In this document: positions 12,607 through 18,651 of the stretch, one piece after another
How the letters are laid out: each line of letters begins with the position of its first letter
Numbering within the stretch: position 1 is the first letter of the stretch
Source of the DNA: Candidatus Jordarchaeales archaeon
Lineage (GTDB): Archaea > Asgardarchaeota > Jordiarchaeia > Jordiarchaeales > Freyrarchaeaceae
Reading direction: 5' to 3'
NCBI GenBank assembly: GCA_038889235.1
Contig: JAWAHN010000001.1
Coordinates: 468,499 to 532,498, forward strand
Length of the DNA: 64,000 bases
Position numbers and translations under genes: made by a program
The notes under the pieces: model-generated
Databases searched by the model: none
What the model was told of the DNA's origin: nothing
The model's input: only the letters and a program-made list of their open reading frames with translations

Positions 12607-12699
12607 GGGCCCCTAGCTCAGCCTGGTAGAGCTTAGAGCGCTAAAAGCACCCGGTTCGCACCCGGGAGGCCGCGGGTTCAAATCCCGCGGGGTCCACCA
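12607..12699 (+). tRNA. tRNA-Ala(CGC) with a 16-nt insertion between D arm and anticodon arm
   Basis: The acceptor GGGCCCC (12607-12613) pairs with GGGGTCC (12689-12695), followed by A and an encoded CCA. The D arm is 12616-12632. The anticodon arm CCCGG-TTCGCAC-CCGGG (12650-12666) gives anticodon CGC with U33 and A37. The T arm is GCGGG-TTCAAAT-CCCGC. Between the D arm and the anticodon stem lie 17 nt instead of 1, so 16 nt are extra; removing them leaves a standard 74-nt tRNA. The insertion can fold as TTAG-AGCG-CTAA, but I could not draw a strict bulge-helix-bulge. A TATA-like AGAATAAATAGG lies about 35-45 nt upstream. Confidence 0.88.
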
Positions 12700-16487: not shown

Positions 16488-16659
16488 CGGGCCCCGCGGG
16501 ACTTGTTCTGGGAAACCCATTTGAACCCTTAGCCGGGAAGGGTGAACCCCCTTGGACCCTGCGACCACCAGCTTTCTACGCTTAGGGCACCGCAGGCGTA
16601 CGCCTCAAAACGTTGGCGCCCTGTCAGGCATTAATAGATCCTGGCTGGGCGAGGGGCCC
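16488..16659 (-). tRNA. tRNA-Arg(GCG) interrupted by five introns
   Basis: Acceptor GGGCCCC (16659-16653) pairs with GGGGCCC (16495-16489); discriminator G is 16488 and CCA is not encoded. Inferred introns: D loop 16637-16623 (15 nt), position 29/30 16613-16598 (16 nt), 37/38 16589-16574 (16 nt), 50/51 16560-16529 (32 nt), 58/59 16520-16503 (18 nt). Splicing leaves exactly 75 nt with perfect stems: D stem GCCC/GGGC, anticodon stem CCAGC/GCTGG, loop CTGCGGA, T stem GCGGG/CCCGC. Each intron allows a 4-bp central helix between 3-nt bulges, for example GUUC/GAAC at 58/59 with a UGGG-UUU-CCCA intron hairpin, CUGC/GUAG at 37/38 and CAGG/CCUG in the D loop. A TATA-like CTTAATATGC lies at 16682-16691. 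Confidence 0.85.
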
Positions 16660-16722
16660 GTGAAGAAGAAATGTAAGCGCCGCATATTAAGCTTTCCTTT
16701 AGCGGTTGTGCTGGAAGGAGAT

Positions 16723-18609
16723 TTACATTTTCGGCGGTATTTCTATGCCAAGCACTTTCATAGCGTTTTTCAGCGTTTGTAGTGTTACTTGTACTAGTGC
16801 AAGGCGCGCTTTCCTCGTTTCAGGGTCGTCTGCTGAAAGAACGGAGCACTCTTCATAGAACTTGTTAAACTTTACTGCCAACTGGTGGGTGTACTCTGCT
16901 AATATGTTTGGCTTGAGGTTTTCCGCGGAAAACAAGATTACTTCCGGGAACTTTGCTATATGTTTGATTAGGTCGGCTTCTCTTTGCGTTGAGAGCTTTT
17001 CAGGGTTTATCTCCGGGCTTGGAGACTCTCCCGCCCTTTCAAGTATGCTTTTAGCTCTAACCGCCGCGTACTGTATGTATGGCCCTGTTTCCCCGTCAAA
17101 GTTTGTGACTTTTTGGTAGTCGAATATTATTGTTTGCTCTGTGCTGAACTTTGCAAGCCAGTATCTTACAGCACCCACTGCTATTATCTCGGCTATCTGT
17201 CTTTTCTCGAGCTCCGAGGCGTCGGGGATATTCTTGTTCACTTGTTCATAAGCGCACAGCATAGTCTGGTTTATGACGGCGTCGGCGTGATACCCAACCC
17301 AGTTCCCTTCCCTTCCCGAGAACCTTTCCCCCATAAGCTGGACGTGTTTGTATGAAAGGTGTATGGAGTTCTCGGCCTGTTCCAAGTATCCCAGCAGCTT
17401 TAGGCACGCTCTAACAGTCTTCTGCAAGTATTCTTGCTCGTATCCTATGACGTTTATCACCCTGTCTGCTCTCGCGAAGCAAGTCATGGGTGTGGCGAGT
17501 ATTGGAGATGTCGTCCAAAGGTCCTTTCCGTTGAATTGCTTGTGCCAAGGGCGGTACTTCAAGTCTGCTTCAAGAAGGCCGAACTTCCAAAGCTGGTATG
17601 CTATGTCGTGGGCAACGTATGTCGGAACCATGTTAGACCTAACAAGAACCTTGTCGGGGTTCTTTTTGTCTTTAAATTCCTCTAGGCGGCTGAGTTTTGC
17701 CACAAAGCAACCCTTGTATTCCCCTTCAGTTTCCCAGACGAAGTACTCAGACTTTTCGAGGAGTTTCATAGTGCGTTCCCAGAGGCGGGCTTTCGAAATG
17801 TCACTTTCCCAGACAAGTAAATCGTAGGTTATCCCCACTCTAGCGGCTGTCTCAAGGTTTGACTCCACGCATTTCTCGGCGAGCTGCCTGCTGAAAAGTG
17901 AGACTTCACCGTTGCTTAGCATTTGTTTCATGACTTCGTCTACTTCAGCCTCGAGTTCAGGGTTCTTTTCCAGCTTCTGGGCTGCCTTAGCGTAGACCAG
18001 CCCGTACCAAAAGTCGAGTTTCATGTCCCTATCCCTTGGAACCTCTAGGTGCAGGTTGTTTAGGAACGCCCAGACTAGGACCCCCATTTGGCGGCCTAAA
18101 TCGTCTATGTAGTTTTGGACTTCGACATTCCAACCGCAGGCTCTTAAAAGGTTGGCAACTATGTCCCCTAAAACAGCGTTTCTTAGGTGCCCTATGTGGA
18201 GAGGCTTAGTAGGGTTAACTGCAGTGTGCTCGACTACTACTTTCCTCCCCTTTCCTATGTCGCAAAAACCGTACTTGTCCCCTTCCGCCATAACGGTCTT
18301 CACTACAGCACTTGCAAGCCTCACTTTATCGAGGAAAAAGTTCACGTAGCCTGGCTCTACGGCTTCAACACGCTCAACGAAGTCCGGCTTTTCCATGCAC
18401 GAAACGATTTCTCTGGCTATTTCAAACGGTGTACGCCTTAGATGGCGGGCAAGCTTAAACGGGACGGTTGAAGATACATCGCCAAGTTTTGGGTCAGGAG
18501 GCTCAGACAAGTTTGAGACATCGCTCCTTGAAACCGCATTTGAAAAACCAAGCTTTTCCAAAGTCTGCCAAAGAGCGTCTGCAATACTCGCTTTAACCGT
18601 TAGAATCAT
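16723..18609 (-). CDS. argS: Arginyl-tRNA synthetase
   Basis: This class I synthetase of about 628 residues charges tRNA-Arg. An N-terminal Arg-tRNA-synthetase domain precedes the catalytic core with TKPLHIGHLRNAVLGD near residue 135 (HIGH motif). The C-terminal anticodon-binding (DALR-type) domain contains NFDGETGPYIQYAAVRAKSI and ends with KNAMKVLGIEIPPKM. The KMSK-like loop appears as QLMGERFSGREGN, a degenerate form common in ArgRS. ATG 18609 has GGTGG 5 nt upstream and is preferred over GTG 18618. Two tRNA-Arg genes flank it on the same strand. Confidence 0.95.
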   Translation of the reverse strand: MILTVKASIADALWQTLEKLGFSNAVSRSDVSNLSEPPDPKLGDVSSTVPFKLARHLRRTPFEIAREIVSCMEKPDFVERVEAVEPGYVNFFLDKVRLASAVVKTVMAEGDKYGFCDIGKGRKVVVEHTAVNPTKPLHIGHLRNAVLGDIVANLLRACGWNVEVQNYIDDLGRQMGVLVWAFLNNLHLEVPRDRDMKLDFWYGLVYAKAAQKLEKNPELEAEVDEVMKQMLSNGEVSLFSRQLAEKCVESNLETAARVGITYDLLVWESDISKARLWERTMKLLEKSEYFVWETEGEYKGCFVAKLSRLEEFKDKKNPDKVLVRSNMVPTYVAHDIAYQLWKFGLLEADLKYRPWHKQFNGKDLWTTSPILATPMTCFARADRVINVIGYEQEYLQKTVRACLKLLGYLEQAENSIHLSYKHVQLMGERFSGREGNWVGYHADAVINQTMLCAYEQVNKNIPDASELEKRQIAEIIAVGAVRYWLAKFSTEQTIIFDYQKVTNFDGETGPYIQYAAVRAKSILERAGESPSPEINPEKLSTQREADLIKHIAKFPEVILFSAENLKPNILAEYTHQLAVKFNKFYEECSVLSADDPETRKARLALVQVTLQTLKNAMKVLGIEIPPKM

Positions 18610-18651
18610 GGCTACCACCGGCCAGTGCTTGGAAACCTAGCTTATTTAACT

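Follow-up and report, generated by a model that had tools for sequence, protein, structure and literature searches.

A 64,000-nucleotide (nt) stretch of DNA from a Candidatus Jordarchaeales archaeon, a member of the Asgardarchaeota (assembly GCA_038889235.1, contig JAWAHN010000001.1, positions 468,499 to 532,498; hereafter the window), carries what is very probably a working transfer RNA gene, tRNA-Arg(GCG), whose six exons are separated by five short bulge-helix-bulge (BHB) introns and would be spliced to a 75-nt tRNA. The gene occupies positions 16488..16659 of the minus strand, with the discriminator base G73 included at 16488. At the level of sequence this reading is borne out by the anatomy of the gene, by a single helix and bulge rule that describes every intron, by conservation in three genomes and by the presence of the splicing enzymes.

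Gene anatomy and intron boundaries

Read on the minus strand, exon 1 (16638..16659, 22 nt, GGGCCCCTCGCCCAGCCAGGAT) comprises the 5' strands of the acceptor and D stems and the D loop as far as ...GGAT, and is followed at 20/21 in the D loop by intron 1 (16623..16637, 15 nt, ctattaatgcctgac), with the central helix CAGG/CCTG. Exon 2 (16614..16622, 9 nt, AGGGCGCCA) supplies A21, the 3' strand of the D stem and positions 26-29, and intron 2 (16598..16613, 16 nt, acgttttgaggcgtac; GCGC/GCGU) interrupts the anticodon stem at 29/30. The anticodon GCG lies at 16593-16591 in exon 3 (16590..16597, 8 nt, GCCTGCGG), after which intron 3 (16574..16589, 16 nt, tgccctaagcgtagaa; CUGC/GUAG) stands at the canonical 37/38 site. 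Exon 4 (16561..16573, 13 nt, AGCTGGTGGTCGC) holds A38, the 3' strand of the anticodon stem, the variable loop and positions 49-50; intron 4 (16529..16560, 32 nt, agggtccaagggggttcacccttcccggctaa), at 50/51 in the T stem, has the central helix GGUC/GGCU and an inner hairpin, GGG/CCC. Exon 5 (16521..16528, 8 nt, GGGTTCAA) spans positions 51-58, intron 5 (16503..16520, 18 nt, atgggtttcccagaacaa) lies in the T loop at 58/59 with the central helix GUUC/GAAC and the inner hairpin UGGG-UUU-CCCA, and exon 6 (16488..16502, 15 nt, GTCCCGCGGGGCCCG) completes the 3' strands of the T arm and acceptor stem and ends with G73.

A preliminary description of this locus, which gave the same interval and no strand, had proposed a perfect 75-nt tRNA-Arg(GCG) once segments of 15, 16, 16, 32 and 18 nt are taken out. 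This is what we find: in the spliced molecule 21 of 21 stem pairs are standard, the conserved bases U8, A14, G18, G19, A21, U33, T54, T55, C56 and A58 are all present, and the mature RNA alone is predicted to fold as a cloverleaf at -42 kcal/mol. A plus-strand reading was rejected, as it lacks a sensible T arm; the gene lies on the minus strand. An intronless tRNA-Arg(CCG) on another contig (C6) of the same assembly has exactly the D arm, GCCCAGCCAGGATAGGGC, that results when the D loop is cut after ...CAGGAT. All six exons occur in order within 172 nt, without the separate loci or swapped order that define split or permuted tRNA genes.

The exon and intron layout was also derived with a parser of our own that fits a tRNA template and allows introns anywhere, provided that the last bases of the exon pair with the last bases of the intron in a 4-bp helix (with at most two G-U pairs), after which each strand has a 3-nt bulge cut as NN|N. 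Its optimum at the locus is the same five introns, with a score of 44.0 against 20.0 for the runner-up, and the positions given in the preliminary description (D loop, 29/30, 37/38, 50/51 and 58/59) recur both in this optimum and in two congeneric genomes. When the intron interiors were scrambled with boundaries fixed, the full set of four central pairs was reached at three introns at most in 200,000 trials, whereas the real gene has it at all five.

Each intron had also been described as having a 4-bp central helix with 3-nt bulges on both sides, and in each of the three genomes all five introns have this helix with NN|N bulges; several of the inner and outer flanking helices are weak, so that the term BHB is strictly true of the central helix and bulges only. 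The inner hairpins reported for introns 4 and 5 are clear, and those of introns 1-3 are weak. For introns 2, 3 and 4 the cloverleaf itself dictates where the boundaries lie. Three observations count against the five-intron reading. Introns 1 and 5 each have more than one acceptable register, and the one adopted was partly the parser's choice because it demanded a 4-bp helix; the helix of intron 4 contains two G-U pairs and its outer helix is not clear; and the predicted folds of the full pre-tRNA do not favour all of the central helices, those at 37/38 and 58/59 being near zero in some genomes. The cuts may therefore have to follow a set order, or the enzyme may have to be permissive, and folding of precursor subsets, which was aimed at the order of splicing, gave mixed results with no consistent order.

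The same weaknesses could be taken to indicate a real tRNA with fewer true introns, one or two of the segments being retained or removed differently, as larger or nested pieces; several flanking helices are indeed weak, and not all five motifs appear in the folds predicted for the full precursor. However, the cloverleaf would lack a complete stem or loop if any one segment stayed in, the intervening exon stretches hardly vary within the genus, and one cut rule fits all five introns, which makes this alternative very unlikely.

Conservation and intron history

The protein of the neighbouring arginyl-tRNA synthetase gene (argS) is 84% and 82% identical to those of two Candidatus Jordarchaeum metagenome-assembled genomes, JNZ_1113 and LHC_1308, which places the source of the window in Candidatus Jordarchaeum (class Jordarchaeia). 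In both (G001 and G003) a tRNA gene downstream of argS has five introns at identical positions; in a third congener (G002, 73% complete) a search with the 5' end of the gene found no match. The preliminary description had suggested looking for the exons in relatives, and they prove to be conserved, with 2/75, 2/75 and 0/75 differences between the three Jordarchaeum genomes. The introns differ at 41/105, 34/99 and 24/101 columns (24-39%) and carry several indels, so that exon and intron divergence are clearly separated (Fisher p from 1e-9 to 5e-7). Despite this drift the central helices are paired at 60 of 60 positions over the three genomes (20/20 in each), whereas a shifted register leaves 3-9 of 20. 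The outer pair of intron 1, for example, is C-G, U-G or U-A across the genus, its congeneric helices being UAGG/CCUA and UAGG/CCUG, and at intron 3 the congeneric strands GCGG and GCAG leave the pairing intact.

Beyond the genus, four genomes of a sister family also have tRNA-Arg(GCG) beside argS; three of these genes contain three introns and one contains four. The introns at 20/21 and 29/30 are common to Jordarchaeum and the sister family, although in two of the sister-family genomes an 11-nt D-loop intron with CAGG/CCTG was preferred by hand over the parser's 13-nt version. The sister-family introns at 53/54 and 59/60 are in registers other than the 50/51 and 58/59 of Jordarchaeum, and the 37/38 intron is found in Jordarchaeum only. 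Because two introns are shared and the rest are not, those at 20/21 and 29/30 look to predate the split of the families, and the other three look to have been gained on the Jordarchaeum branch. An alignment of the spliced tRNAs from Jordarchaeum and the sister family, which also includes the contig C6 tRNA-Arg(CCG), has 100% paired cells and no broken pair between the families, with two-sided changes in 7 of the 21 pairs.

It could be argued that the locus is a decaying pseudogene and that tRNA-Arg(GCG) is supplied by another gene. Neither ARAGORN nor the Rfam tRNA model calls a gene at the locus, and since the genome is 95% complete a second gene could be missing from it. Against this, the exons are near-invariant in the three genomes while the introns drift and yet keep their helices, and the stems show compensatory changes relative to the sister family. 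Moreover, another tRNA-Arg(GCG) gene, which the preliminary description had named, together with a silent locus and exons not conserved in relatives, as evidence against the five-intron gene, was not found in the genome by pattern and BLAST searches, whose only returns were two matches to the T arm of tRNA-Ala and, on contig C6, the intronless tRNA-Arg(CCG). Of the 116 arginine codons in four genes of the window, 29 are CGC or CGT. We regard decay as very improbable, a shade more so than a smaller number of introns. A chance cloverleaf, arising from the freedom to delete five segments from random sequence, can be ruled out: 4-bp helices arise often by chance and there are 319 candidate introns in the stretch of the locus (minimum length 12 nt), but only 127 of 1200 dinucleotide shuffles gave any parse, with a top score of 19.7 against 44.0, and the five-intron layout recurs in the congeners.

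Genomic setting and other tRNA genes

argS (16723..18618, minus strand, assigned from its open reading frame and relatives) lies 63 nt upstream of the five-intron tRNA-Arg(GCG) gene on the same strand, and this adjacency is kept in the congeners and the sister family. Between the two, a putative TATA-like element, CTTAATAT, preceded by AAAG (16684..16691, minus strand), lies some 29 nt before the 5' end of the tRNA and may act as a promoter; the motif AAAG-nAAAG-nTTAATA is found upstream of tRNA-Arg(GCG) in both congeners as well. Scans for sigma-70 promoters and terminators returned nothing, as expected in an archaeon.

On the other side of argS, just upstream, we observed a tRNA-Arg(CCG) gene (18849-18696, minus strand) to which ARAGORN and Rfam are again blind, and which has three introns, of 16 nt in the D loop (three of four helix pairs), 46 nt at 37/38 and 17 nt at 59/60. 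Thus, argS is flanked by two multi-intron tRNA-Arg genes, and the same arrangement is present in the JNZ_1113 genome. In the sister family a two-intron tRNA-Arg(CCG) is upstream of argS and tRNA-Arg(GCG) downstream. tRNA-Arg genes adjoin argS in many Asgard genomes (L024-L027, L028, L031, L039, L041, L043 and L045); one genome (G011) has one-intron tRNA-Arg genes on both sides, and other Asgard genomes have intronless ones beside it.

Twenty-three tRNA genes of the genome could be parsed confidently, a set that includes three genes obtained with a relaxed parser (on L008, on L062 and a tRNA-Arg(CCG)) and is biased to genes that Rfam partly sees. Among these, one has no intron, ten have one, six have two, five have three and one has five, giving 42 introns and a mean of 1.8. 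At least three further tRNA genes (on L010, L052 and L059) apparently have several introns, as does one on L056 (contig C1, near 1,074 kb). No second five-intron gene was parsed in the whole window or in the intergenic parts of a 400-kb sample, covered up to the last 19 of 560 chunks. As standard finders miss such genes, the genome seems far poorer in tRNAs (12 Rfam hits) than it truly is. The gene at 12607-12696 (plus strand) is called tRNA-Leu(taa) by ARAGORN and, with a 16-nt D-loop intron taken out, reads as tRNA-Ala(CGC) with a G3-U70 pair. A tRNA-Arg(CCT) gene (L055/L008, contig C2, near 110 kb) has an apparent 11-nt D-loop intron, GTGTTCCTGAG, whose CAGG/CCTG helix is that of intron 1 of tRNA-Arg(GCG), hinting that introns may have been copied between tRNA-Arg genes. 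The tRNA-Arg(CCG) on contig C6 (L001, 5713 bp) is the sole intronless tRNA gene parsed and stands beside a broken-looking tRNA-Met-like sequence; this contig may be foreign or misbinned.

Splicing machinery and wider meaning

The genome encodes two splicing endonuclease subunits (PF01974) and RtcB. One endonuclease subunit (L066) has the histidine motif PGIDHAP and aligns over its full length with the catalytic subunit of A. pernix (3p1z chain B, E 4e-47), and the second (L067) lacks the catalytic histidine; together they show the catalytic Tyr/His/Lys subunit and His-less partner of an (alpha-beta)2 splicing endonuclease. We infer that tRNA-Arg(GCG), the reader of CGC and CGU codons, is transcribed, cut, joined and charged in the following way. 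From its own promoter the gene would give a pre-tRNA of about 172 nt carrying the five introns, the heteromeric (alpha/beta) endonuclease would cut after the second base of each 3-nt bulge, and RtcB would join the exons to form the 75-nt tRNA, available for charging.

In A. pernix a Crenarchaea-specific loop containing K44-P-R matters for the endonuclease, and the motif in this loop follows the rule of a lysine (K44 in A. pernix), then P/V, then K/R (PMC12397907). The corresponding loop here, GQPLGIRKPKTPQF, aligns without gaps with GQPLDVEKPRGADF of A. pernix and has K51-P-K in place of K44-P-R. The K-P-K/R motif is present in 30 of 30 Asgard catalytic subunits (query residues 42-66), including those of genomes with up to 39 Rfam-visible tRNAs. 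The loop was considered as the cause of the intron load and rejected, since genomes with many intact-looking tRNAs have it too; it would be permissive at most and does not explain intron gain. Judged from these alignments, the lysine motif of the "Crenarchaea-specific" loop is not confined to Crenarchaeota.

The preliminary description held that archaeal tRNA genes were known with two or three introns and that five would be exceptional, and reviews do give three as the maximum (PMC4033280; PMC8450103; with an example in PMC4090602). Five introns are less surprising in view of what has already been reported for this class and for Atabeyarchaeia, whose tRNA genes are rich in introns and include multi-intron ones: in the main text of Valentin-Alvarado et al. 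(2024; PMC11291895), Freyarchaeia, there equated with Jordarchaeia, and Atabeyarchaeia together account for 228 introns in three complete genomes, with introns in 92-95% of tRNA genes, several introns in over half of them and many at non-canonical positions. Those genomes are from different species, Freyarchaeia being of the same class as the present one. No five-intron gene is named in that main text, although its supplementary tRNA table might list one, and the literature, searched for an archaeal tRNA gene with either four or five introns, gave nothing relevant. What is new is therefore the number of introns, the heavy load of the class being already published, and the gene is the extreme of a known lineage-wide trait served by a known splicing route. 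As a five-intron (six-exon) tRNA gene, maintained across an Asgard genus, it is probably the first to be described.

Comparable genes are found elsewhere. The multi-intron tRNA genes of Thermoproteales (Pyrobaculum and relatives; Sugahara et al., 2008, as cited in PMC4033280, PMC8450103 and PMC4090602) are likewise served by a heteromeric splicing endonuclease, but they have at most three introns according to those reviews, whereas the present gene has five and belongs to an unrelated Asgard lineage. Several very short introns in one tRNA, as here, are also described for tRNA-Ile(UAU) of the red alga Cyanidioschyzon merolae (PMC9602550), which has three, and for nucleomorph tRNA-eMet and tRNA-Cys (PMC4090602), with at most three, all of these being eukaryotic.

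If our reading is true, archaeal splicing handles ten endonucleolytic cuts and five joinings on one transcript whose introns are spread over all three hairpin arms, and the limit on the number of introns in a tRNA gene is not near three. Five introns conserved across a genus would raise that ceiling and provide a clear test of the number of cuts and joinings that a single tRNA tolerates, and of their order. As the host is an Asgard archaeon, its splicing endonuclease is relevant to how the eukaryotic enzyme arose, as may be the presence of the loop lysine motif in Asgard archaea.
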